Below, one piece after another: positions 49,949 through 63,403 of a stretch of 64,000 bases of DNA (its first letter is position 1; each line of letters begins with the position of its first letter). A model generated the notes under the pieces. It saw nothing but the letters and a program-made list of their open reading frames with translations, did no database searches and was not told the origin of the DNA. A program made the translations under genes and the position numbers. Source of the stretch: Synergistaceae bacterium (lineage in GTDB: Bacteria; Synergistota; Synergistia; Synergistales; Aminobacteriaceae); NCBI GenBank assembly GCA_017439345.1, contig JAFSJJ010000020.1, positions 1-64,000 on the forward strand, read 5' to 3'.

Positions 49949-50734
49949 ATGCCCGTAAAAAATGCTGTTGAAATCGTACAGGAAATTATTAACATGCAGA
50001 AACGCCCCTTCATGACAGTCAAGAACTTAGCTCTTGTAATGGGTGCTCAGTTACGAAGGCAGTTAGGACTCGAAGACTGTAAAACAAGTGCAGAAATAAA
50101 ACGCGCTCTTGAACCCCTACTAGGCGGCAAATTTATTTTTCACAAGAAAGGTGCTTTTCTTTATATTCTCGTTCCCTGTGATCCTGTTGACTTAGTCAGA
50201 ACCGAACTCTCAACCGAACAGCCCAAAGGTGCAGCAGGTATCGCTTCAGTATTGCCGTACTCGAAAGCTGACGTATCGAGAATATTGAATCACCTGTTAG
50301 ACACAGGAGAAGCGAAATTGATTCTTAGTGAAAATCTTGCAACTAGAATTATAGCTACAGGTCATAAAGCAGCCGATACGCATGAAGTTTACGAGTTTAA
50401 CTCAGAGTCAGAGTCAGAGCCTGAGCCGGAGTCTAAAGCACAGCAGGGACTCGAGCAAGTGCAGGAGTCAAATTTAAGTTTCAGTCAGAAGAAATTCATT
50501 AACGCACTTAGAGAACTTGACAACGGAAATTATTTCGTGAAAATTTTTGCATTGCGTCAAAAACTTAACTGGCCCCGCGAAGTCTTTGATGACATGTTAA
50601 GAGAACTCAGGGACAAAGAAATTATTCAGATGCACATAGCTGACACGACTCTAATGACTCCTGATGAAGTTAATGACTGCTTTATCGACGAGAATAATTA
50701 CAGAATGGGAACGGTAACGCTAAATGCCAGATAA
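49949..50734 (+). CDS. Multi-winged-helix protein, first gene of an ATPase/nuclease/pseudopilin operon
   Basis: 261 residues, no family recognised with confidence. Three winged-helix-like segments can be seen: residues 5-85 (NAVEIVQEII...KGAFLYILVP), 95-135 (GIASVLPYSKADVSRILNHLLDTGEAKLIL) and 170-235 (SFSQKKFINALREL...FDDMLRELRDKEIIQMHI). The second and third are split by an acidic Ser-Glu-Pro linker. No membrane segment is present. Its end overlaps the ATPase start by 11 bases. It is probably a DNA-binding or adaptor partner of that ATPase. Confidence 0.65.
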   Translation: MPVKNAVEIVQEIINMQKRPFMTVKNLALVMGAQLRRQLGLEDCKTSAEIKRALEPLLGGKFIFHKKGAFLYILVPCDPVDLVRTELSTEQPKGAAGIASVLPYSKADVSRILNHLLDTGEAKLILSENLATRIIATGHKAADTHEVYEFNSESESEPEPESKAQQGLEQVQESNLSFSQKKFINALRELDNGNYFVKIFALRQKLNWPREVFDDMLRELRDKEIIQMHIADTTLMTPDEVNDCFIDENNYRMGTVTLNAR

Positions 50735-52667
50735 CAACGCAATAATTCAAGCACTCAAAGAAAACAATCCGTTTATGTCGTCAGCTTCTCCCCTGCCTTG
50801 GGATAACAATACGCCTGACTTGGTGCAGCTCAACCGTGAAGCTTCGGATGAGATAGAGCAGCTTATACTTCACAAGAGACGTTTGCCTTCAACTCCTCTT
50901 GCAGGTTTAGTCTTAGGTGAACCGGGCAGCGGAAAGACCCACATGCTGACCAGAATGCTTAGGAAACTGAGGAAACATGCAAAGCTGGCTATATTCGTTA
51001 CTGTAAAGACATTCGTAGACTCTGAAAGCGTAACATATGATCTTCTCTCAGAGATTCTTATAAGCCTTTCGCAGGTTCACAGTTCCGGCAAGTCCCAATT
51101 TGATATGCTGGTTAATGAAGTCATGAGATCATATAATGAACGCAGACTCAATGACGGCTTCACTGACATCAGCAAAATTGACATGAGGACTTATCTGGCT
51201 AAAGACATGAAAGGGATAAATAAAAACGTCCTGAAGTGTTTAATGCTCTACATAACGACTACTGACGAGAGCGTTAAATGGCAGATTATTGACTGGCTGC
51301 GTGAAGGTCTCGATGAGGAAGAATCGCACCAGCTTGGCCTGCCTGTCCGTGATGTAAGCTCGATGTCTATTGCAACGCGCGAGAATGAAGCTCAGAAAAT
51401 TTTATTATCTCTGGGATTACTGCTAAGTTATGCTAATGTGCCTATGATTATATGCTTTGACCAGCTCGACGCAATGAAGAGTCATGAATTAATAGCAGCA
51501 TGGGGCAGCGTAATTAATCTGCTCGTAAATGACTTGCAGGGTGTCCTGCCTTTATGCTTCCTGAGATTCACTATATGGAACGACTTTATCAAGCCTTATT
51601 TAGATACTCCTGTTATACAGCGTCTTGAACATCACATAATCGTAATGAAAGAGTGTTCGCTTGCTCAGGCAAAGTTATTAATTCGCGGCAGAGTAGACGC
51701 AGCCTTCGAGAATAGTAATCCCGAAGAGAAATATAACTGGTTAATGTCTAGACTCGATAAAAAATTAAAGCCGGGATTCTCCCCTCGAATGGTAATCGAT
51801 CTTGCTAATAAAGAAATACAAGATGCAAAGCCTGATGATGATAACGGAGGCAGTAAAGACGGCAGCGGCAGTAATAATAATAATGATGACAAGAAAGAAA
51901 TCTTCAAGATTATCCGGAATGCCTATAGCGAAGAATGCAGAAAGATAAAAGCTCAGCCCTCAGCATATCCCCCGAATCCTGATCACATAGCTATAGCTCT
52001 TGAAGTGTGGCTGAAGTTTCATGAAGGCTTTGAAGCAACCAGATACAAAGATAAACGGCACTTGAAGATTCGCGGCAGATACAAGGGCAGAGATTACGCG
52101 TTCTATATAGTTACGGCAAAGATAGCTTACTTGGCAATCGGTGCTATGAAACAGGGAATAAAATTAATGGAAGATAATCCCGGCATGCGGTGCTTTTATA
52201 TTTCAGAGGCAAAATTTCACGCTCCAAGCAGGAAGAAGTCAAATGAGACTCTTGAAGACTTCAAAGACTCCGGCGGACGTGCTTATATTATCAAAGAAGA
52301 TGATCGCGCAGGCTGGTACGGACTCAAAGCTCTTATAGACAGAGTAGACAACGGCGATGTTGATTTATTATTAGCTTCAGGGATCAGGACGGCAACACGT
52401 GAGGACATGAAAGACTTCATGCTTAGTCTAAAACCTGTAGAGATTGAAATTGATTATAACAAACTCGGCTATAAACTTATGGACATAATAAAAGTTTCGC
52501 CCATGAAGATATTAGCGGCTAATAAGGCAGTCGAGCTTCTGGCAGAGAAGAAAATAATAATTTCTGACTCAGAGTTAATTGCGTTCGTGAAATCTAATCT
52601 TGATGTATTCAAAATATTTGAGTCAAAGAATGAGATGTTAATAGGCTTGACCGGCAAGAGTAAATAA
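50724..52667 (+). CDS. AAA-type P-loop ATPase of an undefined nuclease module
   Basis: 647 residues. Walker A GLVLGEPGSGKTHML is near residues 62-76, and Walker B MIICFDQLDAM near 236-246. An N-terminal NPFMSSASPLPW motif and an ORC/Cdc6- or KAP-like helical region (about 80-380) are followed by a Gly/Ser/Asn/Asp-rich linker (about 372-392). A separate C-terminal alpha/beta domain (about 410-560: HLKIRGRYKGRDYAFYIV, RCFYISEAKFH, RAYIIKEDD) has an E-x-K-like spot but no confirmed nuclease motif. It is cytoplasmic. The Cas4-like gene follows after 3 bases. The function is not known; DNA processing or defence is inferred from the partners. Confidence 0.7.
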   Translation: MPDNNAIIQALKENNPFMSSASPLPWDNNTPDLVQLNREASDEIEQLILHKRRLPSTPLAGLVLGEPGSGKTHMLTRMLRKLRKHAKLAIFVTVKTFVDSESVTYDLLSEILISLSQVHSSGKSQFDMLVNEVMRSYNERRLNDGFTDISKIDMRTYLAKDMKGINKNVLKCLMLYITTTDESVKWQIIDWLREGLDEEESHQLGLPVRDVSSMSIATRENEAQKILLSLGLLLSYANVPMIICFDQLDAMKSHELIAAWGSVINLLVNDLQGVLPLCFLRFTIWNDFIKPYLDTPVIQRLEHHIIVMKECSLAQAKLLIRGRVDAAFENSNPEEKYNWLMSRLDKKLKPGFSPRMVIDLANKEIQDAKPDDDNGGSKDGSGSNNNNDDKKEIFKIIRNAYSEECRKIKAQPSAYPPNPDHIAIALEVWLKFHEGFEATRYKDKRHLKIRGRYKGRDYAFYIVTAKIAYLAIGAMKQGIKLMEDNPGMRCFYISEAKFHAPSRKKSNETLEDFKDSGGRAYIIKEDDRAGWYGLKALIDRVDNGDVDLLLASGIRTATREDMKDFMLSLKPVEIEIDYNKLGYKLMDIIKVSPMKILAANKAVELLAEKKIIISDSELIAFVKSNLDVFKIFESKNEMLIGLTGKSK

Positions 52668-52670
52668 TAA

Positions 52671-53333
52671 ATGAACGCTGGAAATAGAAAAGTATATACA
52701 ACTGTGAGCGATATTGCCCTGTGTCAAAAATGTCCTGCTCTGCTTGCGTATAAAATTCATATGGGCTTCAAGTCTGCGTTCAGAGTCGGAATCAAAGGCA
52801 GCGGAGATCCTTACGGGACGATCTTTCACAAGAATATAGCTCAAGTATTCTTTGAGGCAGCAGCTAACCCTAGAAATCATCTGCACGGTGAAATTATTCA
52901 TGCTGTGTCAGGCGGCTTCAGGTCTCTTGAGAATGTCATACGCGATAAAATATTTCTGCCGTTCATAGATGCTAACTCGCGGAATTTAACATCAGGGCAG
53001 ATAATCTCTATGGCTTCAGGAGTCAGAGTCTGGGTTCGTGCAATGTCGGAATTCTTCAGGGGAATACGTTCACTGACTCAGGAGGTCTTTATCAGGCCCG
53101 AATTAAGACTGCAGGGCGAATATACTTTCATGAATGCAGACAGCCTTGTTATAACAGGACGCTATGACGCATTATTATTCAATCCTGACAGGGGCGAGGC
53201 AAGATTATTCGAATTCAAAGGATATAATAAGAGCGATATAGTTGTGCCGTTGTCTCAAAGTCTAGTTTACTCATGGCTTATAGAACGCATGACAGGTATA
53301 ACGCCTTCAGTTGAGATAATATATTTAAGATGA
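52671..53333 (+). CDS. Cas4/RecB-like PD-(D/E)XK nuclease, truncated by a frameshift
   Basis: 220 residues. The Cas4-type order is seen: CQKCP (Cys18, Cys21) at the first Fe-S position, His53 in GTIFHKNIA, Asp166 in TGRYDALLF, Glu181 and Lys183 in EFKG, and the QxxxY motif (Gln196, Tyr200). The frame ends at VEIIYLR, where Cas4 proteins normally continue about 50 residues to a C-x2-C-x5-C Fe-S motif. That motif is present downstream in another frame, from 53329 on (DERSIEPDVF and further). Skipping one base near 53328 restores it. There is no cas1, cas2 or CRISPR array nearby. Confidence 0.75.
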   Translation: MNAGNRKVYTTVSDIALCQKCPALLAYKIHMGFKSAFRVGIKGSGDPYGTIFHKNIAQVFFEAAANPRNHLHGEIIHAVSGGFRSLENVIRDKIFLPFIDANSRNLTSGQIISMASGVRVWVRAMSEFFRGIRSLTQEVFIRPELRLQGEYTFMNADSLVITGRYDALLFNPDRGEARLFEFKGYNKSDIVVPLSQSLVYSWLIERMTGITPSVEIIYLR

Positions 53334-53352
53334 AAGGAGCATAGAACCAGAC

Positions 53353-54048
53353 GTGTTTAGTTCAAGTACAGTAAGTGATTTAATGAAGTCGGGACTCGAA
53401 AATTTATTTGAATCAGTCTTTAACGTTGTATCACTGAAAAATTTATCGTTCATGAAAAATATTAATACAGGCAAAAAATTATGTTCTGAGTGTATGTTTT
53501 CAGGACGGTGCAGAAGCGATATTGCTTCAAGATTTAATAACAGGCGGAAGGGAATATCGTTATTAAGCGTAATTATATTCACGGCATTTGCTTTCATGGT
53601 CATATCTCAGGTATTCTTTTACTCGGTGAATTCAAATGAGTCAGTAATCGAAGAGCGCGAAATCATGAGAGTCAGAATAATTCTCGGGGACATGATAAGG
53701 CAGGCCAAGAGTCACACAAGTTCAGCAGCTTCAATCTTAAAAGGCGAAATAAAATATAACGAGTTCAGAAAAGAGTCACCTAATAACTTTTATAAGCTGT
53801 CAGGAACGCCTTCAAATGTGAGTGTCGAGATTCATAATCTTAATTACACTTTTGACGACTCAGGCTTTAGCCACTCAGAATGGATGAAGCTCAAGCCGTA
53901 TGAACATATATTTGACCAGATTCCGGGAGCGTATTTAATCCGTGCATATTCACCGGTTACTAAGGACAGGAGTTTAATGATTCAAGCCGTAGTGAACAGT
54001 TCAGGGAATATATTAACTTGGCAAGAAGTCTGGTACACTAAAGAATGA
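53353..54048 (+). CDS. Nuclease Fe-S tail joined in frame to a pseudopilin
   Basis: 231 residues in two parts. Residues 1-60 are the displaced end of the Cas4-like nuclease with CSECMFSGRC (Cys44, 47, 53). From residue 64, RRKGISLLSVIIFTAFAFMV looks like a prepilin cleavage site (after Gly67) and the hydrophobic helix of a type IV pilin-like protein. A globular periplasmic domain follows. No stop separates the two parts. A pilin start could be the ATG at 53494, within the Cys motif, giving a short prepilin leader. The next gene overlaps by 4 bases. Confidence 0.65.
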   Translation: MFSSSTVSDLMKSGLENLFESVFNVVSLKNLSFMKNINTGKKLCSECMFSGRCRSDIASRFNNRRKGISLLSVIIFTAFAFMVISQVFFYSVNSNESVIEEREIMRVRIILGDMIRQAKSHTSSAASILKGEIKYNEFRKESPNNFYKLSGTPSNVSVEIHNLNYTFDDSGFSHSEWMKLKPYEHIFDQIPGAYLIRAYSPVTKDRSLMIQAVVNSSGNILTWQEVWYTKE

Positions 54049-55958: not shown

Positions 55959-55996
55959 AAAGCGAAATTTTTATTTTTTAACAGGATGTGCTCAAC

Positions 55997-57100
55997 TTGC
56001 AAAACAAATCACTACAGCCTAAAGCTAAAACTAGAACAAGAAAACGAAGCCGCAAAATATTCTTTGTCTTCATATTGCTATTTCTGCTCTTATGGTCAGC
56101 CATAGCCGCCGCAGCCATATCTTATTATTACAAAGCACCGTTGAACTTTTGGGAGGGTATTATACCGTTACCCGAAGGCAGCAAAATCAATGTCGTAATC
56201 GAGCAGGGAATGAATGCGAGTCAGGCAGCCCGAGCTTTCGAGATTCAGGGGGCATTAGAGAAAGGGACTCCTTCACAGTTAGCGCATTGGATGGTCAAAT
56301 TTGGGATCGACAAAAAGATTCGAGCAGGTCATTACAGCGTTGTGCCTTCTGATCCATGGAACTTGGCCAGACAGTTAAAGACTCTTAAGCCTGCGTTGTT
56401 GAAGCTCCAGATTTTGCCGGGACTTGATATATTCTCGTTGATGGACTCACTTGCGAGTCAGGATAATAAAATCACCCAGCAAAGTTTCACAGAAGCATTA
56501 TTGCGCGATGAGAATTACCCTCCCGAAATGGCTGAAATTATAAAGCTGTTAGTTGACGATGAATTCACCCGGGCTGCGTTCTTGCTGCCTGAGACTTATA
56601 TGTTGGTTGACAGGACTCCCGACGAAGCCGTTAATGCTGCTGCCTCTGCATGGTGGAAGCAATGGGGAGGCTTTATCAATGCTAACAAACTGACAGCTCA
56701 GGACTTGATAAATTCTGCAATTGCTGCCTCAATGATAGAACGTGAAGTCCTGCGCGATTCTGAATGCAAAATAGTATCAGGGGTAATCAAGAACAGACTC
56801 GCTAAGAAAATGCTGCTTCAGATTGATGCTACTGTGGTGTATGCATGGAGACTCGCAGGCCGGAAATTGACCCGAGTGCTGAATAAAGATTTAGAGATCG
56901 AGTCGCCCTATAACACTTACAAGAACGCAGGACTCCCGCCAAGACCTATTTGCGTTCCCGGTTCAGCAGCATGGGAAGGAGCTTTAAACCCCGAAGAGAA
57001 TGATTATTATTATTACGTAGCAAGAAAGAACGGTTATCATTATTTCTCGAAGACTTACAACGAACACTTGAGAAATATCAAGCTGGCACGTTCTGAATAA
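55997..57100 (+). CDS. mltG: Endolytic transglycosylase MltG (YceG family)
   Basis: About 367 residues. A basic N-terminus and one membrane helix (IFFVFILLFLLLWSAIAAAA) precede a LysM-like segment and the YceG domain. The catalytic Glu lies in AASMIEREV, followed by GVIKNRL, LQIDATVVYA, SPYNTYKNAGLPPRPI and YHYFSKTYNEH, all family hallmarks. It cleaves nascent glycan strands and sets chain termination. The TTG at 55997 is about 10 bases from AGGA and is preferred over a GTG at 55988. Confidence 0.9.
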   Translation: MQNKSLQPKAKTRTRKRSRKIFFVFILLFLLLWSAIAAAAISYYYKAPLNFWEGIIPLPEGSKINVVIEQGMNASQAARAFEIQGALEKGTPSQLAHWMVKFGIDKKIRAGHYSVVPSDPWNLARQLKTLKPALLKLQILPGLDIFSLMDSLASQDNKITQQSFTEALLRDENYPPEMAEIIKLLVDDEFTRAAFLLPETYMLVDRTPDEAVNAAASAWWKQWGGFINANKLTAQDLINSAIAASMIEREVLRDSECKIVSGVIKNRLAKKMLLQIDATVVYAWRLAGRKLTRVLNKDLEIESPYNTYKNAGLPPRPICVPGSAAWEGALNPEENDYYYYVARKNGYHYFSKTYNEHLRNIKLARSE

Positions 57101-57131
57101 ATAATAATTATTATGATAAGGAGTGAATTAT

Positions 57132-59300
57132 TTGGCTCGAAAGAATAAAAACAAAGGCAGCTGGGCAGAGTTAATCTTATTCGTGATGATAATATTCTGT
57201 TTCTTCTGCATTCTTTCACTGTTCGACAGTCCATTGACCGGAGACTCAGGGCGCGAATGGGGGAAATATCTTCGTTCGTCATGGGGAGGCGCGTTAATTG
57301 TCCCGTTGATGTTCGTGCTTTATCTGTGCATAGCAAAATTATTCAAGTTACGGGTTATCAGAATTCCGCGTCAGATTTTGGGAACTATACAGCTTTATGT
57401 TTCGTTTGCCTTCATGCTTGGCTTACTCAAAGAGACGGGCTGGGACTCGGAACGGACTCTATTTATACCAGGCAGCTTTGGTCATGGACTTGCAAAATTT
57501 TTCGTGTTGAACATAGGGACATTCTTGACGCTGATATTAGTAATATGTTCGTTTATTCTGACGGCGTATTTATTCGGCTCTAAGATATTGACTCTCTCTA
57601 TACCTCAGATTTCCATGAAGTCGTTAAAGTCTCTTAGATTCAAGAAGAGTTCAGGCTCATCATCTAGACGAAGACCGCGCAGAGAAATGGAATACGAAAA
57701 CGAGCGCAGTTACCCTGAAGGCAGACCCGAAAATATATTATTCCCGTTTGACATTCCTGAGCCTAAATTTAATGATGAATATTCAGACTCAGAATCAGAC
57801 TCAGACTCTGTGCAGTTCTCCCAGAGAATTCCCGATCCTGTATTCAAGCCAGAGCCTAAGCCTAAGCCCGAAGCTCAGCACTTAGACCCGTTCAAGAAGG
57901 CAATAAATCTTTTCGATGACTTGATTATTTCTCTTGAAGCCGGTGAAATGAATGCCCCCGGTAAAAGAAAGCATGTAAATAGAACAGTACGCAAGATCAG
58001 AAGGCCATTGCCTACGGTGAGTATTCCTGCTCCTGATCCTGTTGATGATGATAAAGCTAAAGCAAAAGTGAAAGCGTCATCGTCAAAGCCTGAGTCAAAG
58101 CGCGAGTCCAAGTCAGAGTCAAAATCACAGGGCGAACCTCCAGCATTTCCTCCGCCGATTGATATATTTGGCATCAAGCAGCCGTTCGAGACCGATAAAA
58201 ATATCATGAAAGACTCAGAGAAGCAGGGACGTGAAGTTATTGCAGCTCTTAAAAATTTTGGAGTCAGTGCTTCAATTGCGAATATTATCAACGGTCCGTC
58301 AGTCATTCAATATCAATTAGAGTTAGCACCGGGTACTAAAGTAAATAAACTTCTTGAACTGTCTGATGATTTGGCTATGTCTCTTGCAGTTATTGCAGTC
58401 AGGATAGAAGCTCCGATATTAGGGACTCACTATGCCGGCGTTGAAGTTCCTGCACCTGAGCGCAGAATAGTATCATTGAGAAATATTCTTGAGTCTCCAG
58501 AATATCAAGACAGCACAGACAGACTCCCTTTGGCTTTGGGAATGCAGTCAAACGGAAAAATTTTCGTTCAAGGACTTAACGAGATTCAGCACTTATTAAT
58601 AGCAGGTTCTTCCGGGAGCGGCAGGAGCGTGTTTATAAATTCGTGTATATTAAGCATGTGCTTCAAGAGGAGTCCTGATGAGTTAAAGTTAATCTTGATT
58701 GACACAAGGCACTCTGACTTTACGCTTTATGAATATCTGCCTCACTTAATAGCTGCTCCTGTCAATGACGTTAAGCACTCAATAAAGGCTCTGAACTGGG
58801 CGTTAAATGAAGTCGAGTCTCGCTGTTCAAAGTTCTTGAATGCCAAAGTCAAGAATCTCTCAGCGTACAACCGCAAACTTGCAAAAGAAAAAAGACTCCC
58901 TGAAATCGTAATTATTATTAATGAACTTGCGGATTTAATGTACTCTTCAGGAACAGAGACAGAAAATTTGATAATCAGGCTTGCTCAGAAGGCAGGACTT
59001 GCCGGGGTTCACATGATATTAGCGGCAAAGACTCCATCAAGCGAGATAATTACTAACCCTATAAGAGCGAATATACCTGCTAAAGTTGCGTTGACGTTGT
59101 CTTCAGCGAATGAGTCGATTAATATTCTTGATTCTGCTGGCTCAGAGAAGCTCACGGGCAAGGGCGATATGTTATTCAAGAGTTCGAGTCTGCCGTTACC
59201 CGTAAGAATTCAGGCACCGTTTATCAGTGAAGAGAAAGTTTCGGAGTTCGTTGACTATCTTGCAGGTAATTTGAATCCTCCGGACTTGATAAAGTTTTAG
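57132..59300 (+). CDS. FtsK/SpoIIIE-like protein with substituted ATPase motifs
   Basis: About 722 residues. Four N-terminal membrane helices, a Pro/Ser/Glu-rich linker with several Lys-Pro-Glu-Ser runs, then FtsK alpha and beta domains; the DNA-orienting gamma domain is absent. Key residues differ from functional translocases: Walker A reads AGSSGSGRSV (Arg for the catalytic Lys), Walker B reads VIIINELADLM (Asn for Asp), and the LATQRPS block is LAAKTPS. The family's IDPKRVE is IDTRHSD. It is therefore likely a non-hydrolysing or altered FtsK relative. The TTG start has AAGGAG 8 bases upstream. It follows mltG by 31 bases. Confidence 0.85.
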   Translation: MARKNKNKGSWAELILFVMIIFCFFCILSLFDSPLTGDSGREWGKYLRSSWGGALIVPLMFVLYLCIAKLFKLRVIRIPRQILGTIQLYVSFAFMLGLLKETGWDSERTLFIPGSFGHGLAKFFVLNIGTFLTLILVICSFILTAYLFGSKILTLSIPQISMKSLKSLRFKKSSGSSSRRRPRREMEYENERSYPEGRPENILFPFDIPEPKFNDEYSDSESDSDSVQFSQRIPDPVFKPEPKPKPEAQHLDPFKKAINLFDDLIISLEAGEMNAPGKRKHVNRTVRKIRRPLPTVSIPAPDPVDDDKAKAKVKASSSKPESKRESKSESKSQGEPPAFPPPIDIFGIKQPFETDKNIMKDSEKQGREVIAALKNFGVSASIANIINGPSVIQYQLELAPGTKVNKLLELSDDLAMSLAVIAVRIEAPILGTHYAGVEVPAPERRIVSLRNILESPEYQDSTDRLPLALGMQSNGKIFVQGLNEIQHLLIAGSSGSGRSVFINSCILSMCFKRSPDELKLILIDTRHSDFTLYEYLPHLIAAPVNDVKHSIKALNWALNEVESRCSKFLNAKVKNLSAYNRKLAKEKRLPEIVIIINELADLMYSSGTETENLIIRLAQKAGLAGVHMILAAKTPSSEIITNPIRANIPAKVALTLSSANESINILDSAGSEKLTGKGDMLFKSSSLPLPVRIQAPFISEEKVSEFVDYLAGNLNPPDLIKF

Positions 59301-59310
59301 CATATAAAGC

Positions 59311-59364
59311 CAGCAGGGAGAAGATTATCAAATTATCTTAATCCTTCCTGCTGAATTTATTTTA
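59311..59364. terminator. Bidirectional terminator between ftsK-like and licD-like genes
   Basis: CAGCAGG (59311-59317) pairs with CCTGCTG (59347-59353), with further inner pairing, followed by AATTTATTTTA. It lies between convergent genes. Confidence 0.75.
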
Positions 59365-60177
59365 CTTTTTTATATATACTGTCTTGAAGCTCCTGTTTAT
59401 TGGCGTCATGTAGTCGCTGCCGTAAATTATTTTAAGTAATTCATCATAACCTGCAGGACATGGCATGTTCATATCCTCGAAGGGCATATAAACAGTTTCT
59501 GAGAATATCGAAGCAGAAAATTTGCTGTGTTCCCATCCGTAAGTTGAAGCAAAGCTCACAATAGAAGTCTTATCCGGTGAATTGTTAGTGATTGTCTTAC
59601 GGTAGATTTTATTTATGAGCTTAGTTGAGAAAAGTTTCAAGACAGATAACTTCAACAGCCCTTCAATGCTCCTGCAGTGTCTGAATTTCTGACGTCTAGG
59701 GTAAACTATCTTAGTGTGAAGAAATTTGCAGCGATTATATTTCTTCTCTGTTTCCTTAATGTCCGTGAAGCAATAATCAAGAGGATAAATGTCAACCCAA
59801 AGCCCTGTGTGAAATTTATGTTCATTCCATCCTCCGCCTGCAATAGTGTTATTCATGCAGACTCTCGAAAGAAACGGCAGGAAAAAGAACTCATCAGTAT
59901 CAACGTTGTCGAGAAAAAATCTTGAATCAGGATAATCGTTAAATACTTTGCAGAAACGTTCATAATCTTCACGCAGCATGAATAAATCAGCGTCATCGTC
60001 CCATGGGATAAAACCGTGTTCTCTCACCGCACCGATCAATGTTCCAAAAGCAGCGAAGTATCTTATATTTGCTTTAGCACATACTTTGTCAATATGTTTT
60101 ATTATTTCAAGAAGTGCAGAGTGAGTCTCATCAACTGAAGCTCTTCTCATTGAAGACATATCGATCTCGTTTATCAT
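59362..60177 (-). CDS. LicD-family phosphotransferase
   Basis: 271 residues. The nucleotidyltransferase-like core shows FGTLIGAVREHGFIPWDDDADLFMLREDY (metal-binding Asp cluster, about 45-73) and GLWVDIYPLDYCF, both LicD hallmarks. Such enzymes attach phosphocholine or similar groups to surface glycans. It stands alone on the minus strand between the FtsK-like gene and murC. With the ATP-grasp and TylF-like genes it suggests decorated surface polysaccharide. Confidence 0.85.
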   Translation of the reverse strand: MINEIDMSSMRRASVDETHSALLEIIKHIDKVCAKANIRYFAAFGTLIGAVREHGFIPWDDDADLFMLREDYERFCKVFNDYPDSRFFLDNVDTDEFFFLPFLSRVCMNNTIAGGGWNEHKFHTGLWVDIYPLDYCFTDIKETEKKYNRCKFLHTKIVYPRRQKFRHCRSIEGLLKLSVLKLFSTKLINKIYRKTITNNSPDKTSIVSFASTYGWEHSKFSASIFSETVYMPFEDMNMPCPAGYDELLKIIYGSDYMTPINRSFKTVYIKK

Positions 60178-60363
60178 GCAGCAGAACCTCCATATGTTTC
60201 AGTATAAAGTAATGTAAGCATGTAAGTTTTTCTTCTTTCGTAATAATTTTTGAGCAATTATATAACAAAAACAAAAATGCCAAATTTTTTTTGCGAAGAC
60301 TAATAATATTAATAAAAGAATAAAGACTCATAAAATTTATTAGGAGTGAAAAATTTTTCTGCC

Positions 60364-61743
60364 ATGATTGAGAATATAAAGGCTGTTCACCTTATGGGAG
60401 CAGGCGGAGCAGGTATGAGCGCGCTTGCAAAACTCTTAGGGGCAGCGGGACTTGAAGTCAGCGGATGTGATCTGCAGCAACCGCACTATGATTTAGAAAA
60501 TATTTTGATAAGCCCGTGCATAATCGGACATTCGCCGGAACATATAGATAAATTCAAACCTCAGGCATTAATATTAAGCAGTGCAGTAAGTCATGATAAT
60601 CCTGAAGTGTTAAGAGCAAAAGAGTCAGGCATAAAGATTTATTCGCGGGCTCAGGTCTTAAGCGAATTATTCAACAACGCTCAAGGCATAGGCATAGCAG
60701 GAGCTCACGGCAAGACAACGACAACTTCAATGACAGGCTTAATATTTCTTCAGGCAGGCTTAGACCCTACCATTTATGTAGGCGCAAACGTTCCCGACAT
60801 AGGCAGCAACGCAGTATCAGGACATGGACAGGAAAAATATTTTATCGCTGAACTTGACGAGTCAGACGGAACATTTGAACTCTTTCACCCTTCAATAGCA
60901 ATAATAACTAATGCAGACTGGGATCACGTAGATCACTACAAGACACGCAATGAAGTTATTGAAGCCTTCACAAGATTTGCAGACGGACGCAAGAAATTTT
61001 TAATCATGTGCGCTGAGGACGAGGGAACTTCACACGTTTACGAGAAATTAATAAATCATGAAAATGTTTTGCGCTACGGCTGGGGGAAAAATTTCGACTG
61101 GGGAGCCTATGACATAGTGAATAACCCCGGCGGCGGCATTTCCTGTAAAGTTTCGCATCACGGCTCTGAACTTGGCAGGCTCGAATTATCAGTTTCAGGT
61201 GAGCATAATATATTGAATTCACTTGCGGCAATGGCTGCTGCTGACTTGTGCGGTGTTGACTTCAAGACTTCGGCAGAAATATTAAAGCACTTTCACGGCT
61301 CAGAAAGACGGATGCAGGTTAAGGGTTCGCGAAATAATATTTTGGTGATCGATGATTACGCCCATCACCCATGTGAAATAAAAGCGACACTGAATGCAGT
61401 ACGTGGCATTTATCCTGATAAGAGAATAATATTAATTTACCAGCCTCATAGATTTTCACGGACTGCGAAATTTGCTCCTGATATAGCGCGCGCTTTGAAT
61501 CTTGCTGACGAAATATTTTTGCTTCCTGTTTACTCAGCCGGTGAGAAAGAGTTATCGCACAGTTCTTCAGATGAGATAATAAAGCTCAGTGAGAAAGCTG
61601 TAACGCGTATAAATAATAATGATGACGCATTGAACGTGATAGAGCCTCGACTCAAATCCGGAGATATATTGCTAACAATGGGTGCAGGCGATGTATATAA
61701 AATCGGCGAAAAATTTTTAGGACATCATGGACACGTTGAATAA
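60364..61743 (+). CDS. murC: UDP-N-acetylmuramate--L-alanine ligase
   Basis: About 459 residues. N-terminal VHLMGAGGAGMSALAKLL, ATP loop GIAGAHGKTTTTSMTGLI, AELDESDGTFELF, and C-terminal VIDDYAHHPCEIKATL with YQPHRFSR are MurC signatures. The ATG at 60364 gives the usual N-terminus; the GTG at 60346 overlaps the AGGAG site. First gene of the second dcw half; it overlaps murB by 17 bases. Confidence 0.94.
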   Translation: MIENIKAVHLMGAGGAGMSALAKLLGAAGLEVSGCDLQQPHYDLENILISPCIIGHSPEHIDKFKPQALILSSAVSHDNPEVLRAKESGIKIYSRAQVLSELFNNAQGIGIAGAHGKTTTTSMTGLIFLQAGLDPTIYVGANVPDIGSNAVSGHGQEKYFIAELDESDGTFELFHPSIAIITNADWDHVDHYKTRNEVIEAFTRFADGRKKFLIMCAEDEGTSHVYEKLINHENVLRYGWGKNFDWGAYDIVNNPGGGISCKVSHHGSELGRLELSVSGEHNILNSLAAMAAADLCGVDFKTSAEILKHFHGSERRMQVKGSRNNILVIDDYAHHPCEIKATLNAVRGIYPDKRIILIYQPHRFSRTAKFAPDIARALNLADEIFLLPVYSAGEKELSHSSSDEIIKLSEKAVTRINNNDDALNVIEPRLKSGDILLTMGAGDVYKIGEKFLGHHGHVE

Positions 61744-62614
61744 ATTAAATATTATCGAGAAGGGACGAAATTTAGCTTCTCTGTGTACGTTAGGAGTCGG
61801 AGGCATTGCAGAATTTTTCGCAGAACCTGACTCTCTTGAAGGCGTTCAAGAATTAATAAAACTTGCTAAAGGTTATCCCGTTTATGTTCTAGGCGGGGGC
61901 AGCAATGTTATTTACCCTGATGATTTAATTCACGGACTCGTTATATCGACTCGGAATATAAATAAAATCACATGGCATGATGACTTGAGCGCAGATATTG
62001 AATCAGGTTATAAACTTCCTGGTCTGGTGAAAAATATTCGTGAAAAGAATCTCGCAGGCTTGGAGTTCGCGGCAGGGATTCCAGGTTCACTCGGCGGGGC
62101 AGTCTCAGGCAATGCAGGAGCAGGAGGTCACGGAGTCTGTGAGCTGATAGAGAGCGTTCTTGCAATTGACTCATCAGGAAATTTCAGGAAATATAATAAT
62201 AAAGATTTCAGCTTTGAGTATCGAAAATGTTCGCTTTCATGTGAAAATATAATAATACTCTCAGTGAAAATGAAATTTAGGGCATCAAGACCTGAAGACG
62301 AAGAGATATATCAAAAATTTTTGTCTCTCAGGAAAAATCAGCCTTTGAATTTCAAGAGCGCAGGATGTACATTCAAGAATCCTGAAGGTTACTCGGCAGG
62401 AAAATTATTAGACGACTGCGGATGTAAAAATTTAAGAGTCGGCGGTGCAGTAGTTTCTGACAGACATGCAAATTTTATATTGAATACAGGTAATGCTTCA
62501 AGTTTTGATATTATGGATTTGATAAAGATTTGCAGAGATAAAGTATACGGCATTACGGGAATAATGCTCGAACAGGAAATCAAGAACGCTGAGCCGTGTT
62601 TCATAGCGTCATAG
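61727..62614 (+). CDS. murB: UDP-N-acetylenolpyruvoylglucosamine reductase
   Basis: 295 residues, FAD-dependent, type II MurB. TLGVGGIAEFF, VLGGGSNVIYPD, GIPGSLGGAVSGNAGAGG and FSFEYRKCSL are visible. The general-acid Ser found in many MurB proteins is Cys here (SAGCTFKNPEG), a natural variant I believe occurs in other phyla. The terminal Glu motif is present as EQEI. It overlaps murC by 17 bases, and the ftsQ-like gene follows after 9. Confidence 0.94.
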   Translation: MDTLNKLNIIEKGRNLASLCTLGVGGIAEFFAEPDSLEGVQELIKLAKGYPVYVLGGGSNVIYPDDLIHGLVISTRNINKITWHDDLSADIESGYKLPGLVKNIREKNLAGLEFAAGIPGSLGGAVSGNAGAGGHGVCELIESVLAIDSSGNFRKYNNKDFSFEYRKCSLSCENIIILSVKMKFRASRPEDEEIYQKFLSLRKNQPLNFKSAGCTFKNPEGYSAGKLLDDCGCKNLRVGGAVVSDRHANFILNTGNASSFDIMDLIKICRDKVYGITGIMLEQEIKNAEPCFIAS

Positions 62615-62623
62615 TGAATTGCT

Positions 62624-63403
62624 GTGCGTGTTCGTCGACGTATTCGTCTTAGATTTTTCATGCTGATAGTGTTTATTGCAGGCTGTGTGTTTCGTATTGC
62701 TGAGTATAAATCATTTTTCGCCTTGAAGTATTACAGGGTCGAAGCTCAGTCTCAGGCCCTCGAGCAAAGACTATGGGATATATTTCCGGCTAGGTGCTTG
62801 ACGTTTTGGCCGTATCTGCTTAAGGACTCTCAGGGGATCAGCGAATTTCTTGAACGTGATATGCCCGTTACAGTCGAGACTCACATGGAAGGATTCGGGA
62901 GATTCAAGACTGTTATAAACTGGCTCAAAGCATGGGTTAAAGTCCAATGGCGGGGCAAAATCTGGTGCATATCCCGTGACGGCAAAATGTGGCTCTCTGA
63001 GAACGGAAGGCCTAACGAGGACGAAGCAGGACGCGTAATCTGGAAAATTCCGGAAGAAGGCAGCACTCGAGACGGCGTAGAAATTACAACTCCTGAGTTC
63101 GGTGTATTTGATTCGCCGATTGCTACTGAAGTAATTTCTGAATTTGTCGAGGAGTTCAGGGGCTACAAATGGTTTGACTCAGCTAATGAAATCACATGGG
63201 AGAGACGTGCAGGAATGGATTTATTTATATTAAAGCTCTCTCACGGACGGCAGAAATTCGAGTTATTCCTGCAAAAAGAAAAATATCCCGGCCAAGATGT
63301 CGGTGCTATACTTGATGAATTATTCTCACGGTTAATCACTGAGGGCGGGAGTCATATAATAGACGCAACTTATGAAGGAAAAATTTTATTGCGTAATTTA
63401 TAA
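62624..63403 (+). CDS. ftsQ: FtsQ/DivIB-like division protein
   Basis: 259 residues. A basic N-terminus (VRRRIRLR) and one membrane helix (FFMLIVFIAGCVF) precede a POTRA-like region (about 70-120, FLERDMPVTVETHMEGFGRF) and a larger beta domain. Sequence similarity is weak, but topology and place between murB and ftsA fit FtsQ. GTG start. Confidence 0.75.
   Translation: MRVRRRIRLRFFMLIVFIAGCVFRIAEYKSFFALKYYRVEAQSQALEQRLWDIFPARCLTFWPYLLKDSQGISEFLERDMPVTVETHMEGFGRFKTVINWLKAWVKVQWRGKIWCISRDGKMWLSENGRPNEDEAGRVIWKIPEEGSTRDGVEITTPEFGVFDSPIATEVISEFVEEFRGYKWFDSANEITWERRAGMDLFILKLSHGRQKFELFLQKEKYPGQDVGAILDELFSRLITEGGSHIIDATYEGKILLRNL

Follow-up and report, generated by a model that had tools for sequence, protein, structure and literature searches.

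An FtsK with an altered motor and no gamma domain at the division locus of a Synergistaceae genus, and its probable role as a division protein that does not pump DNA

The stretch of DNA considered here, 64,000 nucleotides long and called the window throughout, lies on contig 13 of a 2.54-Mb draft genome (G000; 46 contigs, 98.3% complete) whose closest named public records are Synergistaceae and Synergistales MAGs from the gut of goat, sheep and deer. It carries an ftsK gene whose layout and immediate neighbours are collected in Table 1. The frame is open to its end with zero internal stops, and the protein lies above the Pfam cut-offs of both motor domains (24 bits for PF01580 and 22.9 bits for PF17854). 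An alternative start, GTG at 57123, would give 725 residues; TTG is preferred because an AAGGAG at 57118-57123 sits 8 bases before it. Residues are numbered here on the 725-residue form, and the numbers of the TTG form are lower by 3. Hydropathy peaks at residues 16-34, 56-74, 84-102 and 128-146 would fit the four membrane helices proposed in the first-pass annotation of the window, but the Pfam family FtsK_4TM (PF13491), which is above its cut-off in both of the two outgroup FtsKs scanned, finds no match in this protein at E 1. The linker that follows has the highest dN of the four FtsK regions in most pairs compared. Beyond the position of the stop codon, other FtsKs have about 81-134 further residues, which include the gamma domain.

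Table 1. Positions in the window of ftsK, its domains, its altered motor residues and its neighbours
Feature	Position	Strand	Details
mltG, adjoins ftsK upstream	55988..57100	+	PF02618 200.8 bits
ftsK ORF	57132..59300	+	TTG start, 722 aa; PF01580 135.9 bits, PF17854 78.9 bits
N-terminal membrane domain	57132..57662	+	four hydropathy peaks
Low-complexity linker	57663..58136	+	sequence
Alpha domain (motor base)	58137..58463	+	PF17854, residues 356-443
Beta domain (RecA-like motor fold)	58464..59192	+	PF01580
Walker A, GSSGSGRS	58605..58628	+	Lys position is Arg, AGG 58623-58625
Walker B Asp-Glu as Asn-Glu (IIINELADLM)	58920..58925	+	Asn is AAT 58920-58922; Glu retained
Arginine-finger position (R620 of P. 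aeruginosa FtsK), Gly	58995..58997	+	alignment
DNA-contact loop II Arg (R632), Thr	59031..59033	+	alignment, PMC7321959 roles
DNA-contact loop I Arg (R661), Ile	59118..59120	+	alignment, PMC7321959 roles
Stop codon directly after beta domain	59298..59300	+	last residue ends 59297
murC, murB, ftsQ-position gene	60346..63403	+	downstream; murC/murB named from sequence and position

The adjacency of mltG and ftsK holds across the genus, and the two lie within about 3 kb of each other in most loci of the sister genera and of the order. The gene order mltG-ftsK-murC-murB-ftsQ-like is common to the genus; the ftsQ-like ORF is without a match in Pfam or NCBIfam. Beyond it, outside the window, follow ftsA, ftsZ and a gene for a SPOR protein, and the other side of the locus carries a MraW methylase, a PBP transpeptidase and Mur ligases. 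FtsZ-type division genes are therefore present, and the earlier placement of mltG beside a division cluster is borne out (mltG-ftsK-(licD)-murC-murB-ftsQ-like-ftsA-ftsZ). The bracketed gene belongs to the LicD family and lies between ftsK and murC on the minus strand (window 59362-60177); in several congeners murC stands directly 3' of ftsK, with no LicD gene between. By its domains, its motor fold and its locus near mltG, the window protein is a member of the FtsK/SpoIIIE family by descent. It alone exceeds the PF01580 cut-off in the G000 proteome, the sub-threshold matches being C8 (21 bits) and C36 (20.8 bits), so that the look for a canonical FtsK elsewhere in this genome, suggested at first pass, turned up none.

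The Walker Lys and Asp of P. aeruginosa FtsK are presumably K472 and D595, numbers consistent with the E596, R620 and R632 of the papers on that protein. Motor residues of the window FtsK were mapped through alignment to the P. aeruginosa chain 2iuu, and their roles were taken from passages of PMC7321959 and PMC9410874. The departures already annotated all stand: Arg for Lys in the Walker A motif, Asn for Asp in Walker B, LAAKTPS in place of the LATQRPS block, the missing gamma domain, and a run of 722 residues free of stops. That annotation had overlooked the Gly at the arginine-finger position and the loss of two DNA-contact arginines (Table 1); in addition, the equivalent of R548 is Lys. 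The catalytic Walker B Glu and the D599 equivalent are retained. None of the mapped positions, K, D, E and R620 among them, varies in the 34 order-level FtsKs (14 aligned from 24 order-level genomes and 20 from the same family, counting G106 and a cut sequence from G137). Likewise, the 73 FtsKs of named public records from outside the genus (Firmicutes, Desulfovibrionaceae and others) all have K and DE and all run 81-134 residues past the position of the window stop. Lys and Asp changes of the kind seen in the window abolish ATPase activity in P-loop motors. Judged from these residues and from the missing domain, the window FtsK is classed neither with the FtsK translocases nor with the FtsKs that activate Xer.

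How far these changes extend through the genus was assessed in 38 sequences. FtsK matches were obtained in 60 of the 61 genomes of the first set (37 of the genus and 24 of other families); set aside from the 38 were G003, whose contig ends inside the beta domain (Walker A Leu, Walker B Asn), G021 with the N-terminal part alone, G036 with no match (79% complete), JAFPZI as a near-copy of G034, and G131b, a second G131 fragment with Lys, Asn and finger Gly. The Walker A position holds Arg in 19 sequences, Lys in 18 and Leu in 1; the Walker B Asp position holds Asn in 23, Asp in 8, Ser in 5, Gly in 1 and Glu in 1; and the finger Arg, replaced by Gly in 33, Ala in 3 and Lys in 1, is lost in 37 of 38. 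Taking K, D and finger R together, three are lost in 17 sequences, two in 16, one in 4 and none in 1, the last being G015, where K, D, E and R are all canonical. All but one of the 38 sequences keep the catalytic Glu, the P-loop glycines are mostly retained, and Arg or Lys occupies the basic positions of loop II in 32 and of loop I in 34 sequences. Several derived residues are near-fixed, such as the Gly at the finger and a Thr at alignment position 679. Six different Arg codons are used at the Walker A position, by which a reassigned codon there was ruled out. Two differing ftsK orthologues occur in the G131 draft (L187, L210), perhaps from mixed strains, and single internal stop codons are found in two genus ftsK genes, L118 (G019) and G014:C94.

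When the Walker and LATQRPS columns are left out of the FtsK alignment, the resulting tree unites the genus in a single clade (100/99). It requires no fewer than 7 changes at the Lys position and 11 at that of the Asp, which are minimum changes rather than counted losses because reversals are possible. The earliest-branching members, G019 and G152, keep Lys and Asp and have the finger Gly. The "coordinated loss" read from the single gene therefore does not hold within the genus, where the residue changes arose separately on the tree, nor are Arg and Asn fixed among orthologues, as the counts of Lys (18/38) and Asp (8/38) indicate. Canonical residues in close relatives had been named as grounds against the earlier proposal, and on this the nearest relative, G018, is divided: its Walker A has the Lys, but its Walker B has Asn. 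As far as the compared sequences tell, the genus-wide changes are the losses of the arginine finger, gamma and Xer, and the Walker Arg and Asn vary between members.

The gamma domain (PF09397) is found in none of the 37 genus genomes (G000 and 36 congeners) as against 24 of 24 genomes from nine other families; order-wide it is present in 110 of 149. With the XerD model TIGR02225, the top match in the 37 genus genomes reaches 128.8 bits and 17 have none at E 1e-3, whereas all 24 other-family genomes have a match of at least 239 bits and 23 of them two of at least 232 bits (G059 has one plus a fragment). Four additional genus genomes give a top match of 124.1 bits. Among gamma-bearing genomes of the same family, 18 of the 20 were tested (G097 and G111 were left out) and all 18 have an Xer match of at least 242 bits, 15 with two full ones; the threshold was E 1e-10 for these and for the four extra genus genomes, and E 1e-3 for the 37 genus and 24 other genomes. 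G000 itself has one tyrosine recombinase match of 59.9 bits in a 207-residue frame that covers the catalytic half alone, and its counterparts are not genus-wide. By these profile searches, the absence of XerC/XerD follows the same split between genus and non-genus as does gamma.

It was considered whether the genus had simply given up recombination, a cause that was rejected given that RecA is found in 33 and RuvC in 35 of the 37 genomes. Chromosome dimers should still arise in the genus because both are kept. A chromosome made linear through a protelomerase is likewise unsupported, with no protelomerase in any of the 61 genomes. Replacement by a single recombinase of the XerH or XerS type was also set aside: the XerD model matches all 14 controls, archaea included, yet finds nothing in 17 of the 37 genus genomes. 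A consensus-based dif pattern gave matches that are equally rare in Xer-bearing and Xer-less genomes and that resemble those of a reversed control.

A second case was met in G106, from the sister genus g21 (97% complete), where the motor is fully canonical and gamma is cut to a short remnant, MDTGIASASGL, followed by another reading frame (L196 near 2700-2862). This genome has no gamma match and no XerD-type match at E 1e-10. On the tree it clusters with G083 (96/89); since it falls outside the genus, gamma and Xer were lost together at least twice, and to judge from the tree G106 lost them independently with its motor unchanged. The case agrees with a course in which the partners are lost first and the motor changes later, and lends that course some support, two events being few. 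Other gamma-less genomes, G065, G066, G137, G151, G157 and G158, have Xer-type matches of at least 204 bits, all of them drafts of 63-84% completeness with an absent or truncated FtsK. No FtsK was matched in G146 (66% complete), whose Xer matches are all partial. In G136 (g25 of the same family, 86% complete) no FtsK, gamma or Xer match exceeds 83 bits, and FtsK has possibly been lost altogether.

The first-pass annotation had supposed that the gene is under coding constraint, and this can now be given values. In 11 genus pairs, dN/dS of the beta domain is 0.042-0.185, so the domain is not in free decay; for gamma-bearing pairs the range is 0.003-0.068 (from 7 of 9 pairs, as two were saturated). 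In 8 of the 10 genus pairs with both values computable, beta dN lies below that of the N-terminal domain. Such constraint between close pairs fits a working domain and, taken alone, would leave room for a working motor. Over longer distances, median identities are 58.3% (N) and 57.0% (beta) within the genus and 26.4% and 71.5% among 14 sequences of the order, a comparison confounded by the greater depth of the order-level set; N identity exceeds beta identity in 240 of 406 genus pairs against 0 of 91 order-level pairs. Where N identity is 55-65%, the beta median is 57.8% in the genus (204 pairs) and 89.7% outside it (2 pairs). The beta domain is still under purifying selection, and the target of the constraint would seem to have shifted, a pattern that, short of proof, is more easily squared with repurposing than with decay. 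An AF2 model of the alpha-beta region (mean pLDDT 91.9) has 2iut_A as its best VIA match (Z 54.7, rmsd 1.7, 382 residues aligned) and 2ius next to it (Z 53.8); the region is thus predicted to fold as an FtsK motor, a fold match being silent on activity.

Beside mltG-ftsK lies an operon (window 49949-54048) made of a gene without a Pfam match, an AAA ATPase (50724-52667) and a Cas4-like part, the last so labelled from a weak PADLOC match (E 0.0063) and a cysteine-rich end. A plasmid search with the ATPase at 50724 gave no match. A second FtsK-type ORF is carried by seven genomes of the same family from five sister genera, and related parts recur in those that were read. Of the four such ORFs read, L236-L238 have a part similar to the window ORF 52671-53333 fused to an FtsK motor, and in L235 an ATPase like that at 50724-52667 runs into the motor with the Cas4-like part unmatched; ATPase-like sequence is matched in all four. 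The genus core (G000, G009, G020 and G035) has the ATPase and Cas4-like genes just upstream of mltG-ftsK, and in the core loci examined (L230, L231, L035 and L037) the Cas4-like part continues as a pilin-like membrane segment, with no motor. This fusion is one continuous frame in G009, G020 and G035, and in G000 it is split by a frame change at 53333-53353 into the ORFs 52671-53333 and 53353-54048. The operon is absent from the 17 kb examined at the G015 ftsK and from the surroundings of the sister ftsK loci. No second FtsK-type motor as in the sister genera occurs in the 37 genus genomes, EssC-looking ORFs aside. The latter are ORFs of about 1500 residues with two FtsK/SpoIIIE domains in G005, G009, G010, G011, G014, G017, G022 and G027, not in G000, which we take to resemble EssC-type secretion ATPases.

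Several explanations may be weighed against these observations. An error of assembly or base calling, a reassigned codon or an overlooked canonical FtsK can be dismissed with near certainty: the genomes are drafts and internal stops do occur in G019 and G014, yet the pattern recurs across separate genomes, in 38 sequences with differing codons, none of the 37 genus genomes has gamma or Xer, and the 98%-complete G000 has no second FtsK. That the protein still translocates DNA with ATP, through an unusual active site and in the absence of gamma or Xer, appears improbable. The Glu, the D599 equivalent and most P-loop glycines are kept, Lys persists in 18 of 38, the beta domain is constrained, and according to PMC4744071 a gamma-less SpoIIIE can be rescued by missense mutations; against this, the window FtsK changes the Lys, the Asp, the finger Arg and two DNA-contact Arg together, each of them invariant in 34 of 34.

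A vestigial motor, eroding after the loss of Xer and gamma, with an alpha-beta fold or oligomer that merely supports the N-terminal domain and has no new role, would account for the repeated Lys and Asp changes on the tree and for the drop of long-term beta identity to the level of the N-terminal domain (57.0% vs 58.3%). It sits poorly with a beta dN/dS of 0.04-0.19, with a catalytic Glu that all but one of the 38 sequences retain and with near-fixed derived residues, and we regard it as rather unlikely. A similarly modest, slightly larger share of belief goes to the idea that dimer resolution and DNA clearance have passed to a different recombinase or translocase, so that FtsK was free to change; this is compatible with the explanation preferred below. 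RecA and RuvC are kept and the ATPase/Cas4-like operon has been retained beside ftsK in core members of the genus, but no XerD-type tyrosine recombinase is common to the genus (17 of 37 have none), no protelomerase occurs in the 61 genomes, and the FtsK motor of that operon is gone in the genus core.

The explanation that we favour, and consider probable, is that the genus's sole FtsK by descent has become a non-translocating, membrane-anchored division protein. Xer and gamma would have been lost first, then the finger and then the Walker residues, an order made likely because G106 and the first-branching G019 and G152 keep Lys and Asp. ATP hydrolysis and DNA pumping would be lost in the window FtsK, the N-terminal domain would still work alongside late division proteins, and the alpha-beta region may persist as an oligomeric scaffold, perhaps binding nucleotide and not hydrolysing it. 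Passages of PMC12283558 present E. coli as thought to need the FtsK N-terminal domain alone for division. Some members of the genus may still bind DNA or nucleotide, because the Glu, the P-loop glycines and the basic loop residues are mostly kept. Against a non-translocating reading speak the canonical G015 and the retention of RecA and RuvC with no replacement resolver identified. The observation behind the first-pass annotation is thus confirmed and proves broader than was seen, and its interpretation is partly supported: a non-translocating FtsK is by sequence the best reading, and a septal scaffold role may be inferred for the window protein. A bolder statement, finely balanced and in our judgement leaning slightly to the doubtful side, is that the whole genus, of ordinary genome size (drafts of 1.5-2.8 Mb), divides without a working FtsK-type DNA pump or Xer dimer resolution. 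On this view its FtsK would be a ring-shaped "pseudo-translocase" in which selection preserves the motor fold, the Walker B Glu and the derived active-site residues because they serve at the septum in holding DNA, in sensing nucleotide or as structure, and the genus core would also have lost the second, Cas4-like-fused motor of its sister genera.

Among known systems, the FtsKs of E. coli and P. aeruginosa share with the window protein the alpha-beta fold, the membrane N-terminus and the division gene neighbourhood, whereas the latter has no gamma domain and no XerC/XerD partner, and its Lys, Asp, finger and DNA-contact Arg are altered. The EssC/EccC ATPases of type VII secretion have FtsK-related domains (Z 25-31 to the window model), and degenerate ATPase domains are known in that family; they are, however, multi-domain secretion proteins, and the window FtsK is a single motor at the orthologous ftsK locus. 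SpoIIIE and SftA of Bacillus subtilis belong to the same motor family but, unlike the gamma-less window FtsK, both are active and carry gamma. Sections of PMC5357621 describe a gamma similarity in SpoIIIE and, with SftA, that family members can differ in their N-terminal part. In Legionellales and insect endosymbionts, excerpts of PMC2731167 report no dif/Xer, with RecA or other recombination genes kept in most; these are Proteobacteria, and their likeness to the genus lies in the absence of Xer with RecA retained. The FtsK of Planctopirus limnophila is described in part of PMC12283558 as lacking PF17854 within an unusual division system; there the missing domain is the Pfam alpha domain and FtsZ is absent, whereas G000 has PF17854, ftsA and ftsZ. 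A naturally degenerate FtsK motor, or loss of Xer in Synergistota, was not encountered in the open-access papers searched on FtsK/Xer and on rumen Synergistota, and an FtsK with an altered motor, no gamma and no Xer is a variant absent from the open-access FtsK/Xer literature searched.

In most bacteria, FtsK couples division to the clearance of the chromosome and the resolution of dimers, and how cells without dif/Xer cope is called an open question in passages of PMC2731167 and PMC3025954. The family considered here offers a natural series, from gamma, Xer and a canonical motor in most genera, through G106, to a genus (41 genomes) with an altered motor, and along it the role of FtsK in division can be told apart from pumping and from the activation of Xer. 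It leads to the prediction that a bacterium of such genome size can live without both pumping and Xer activation. Overall, the genus appears to divide without a tool on which most bacteria rely.
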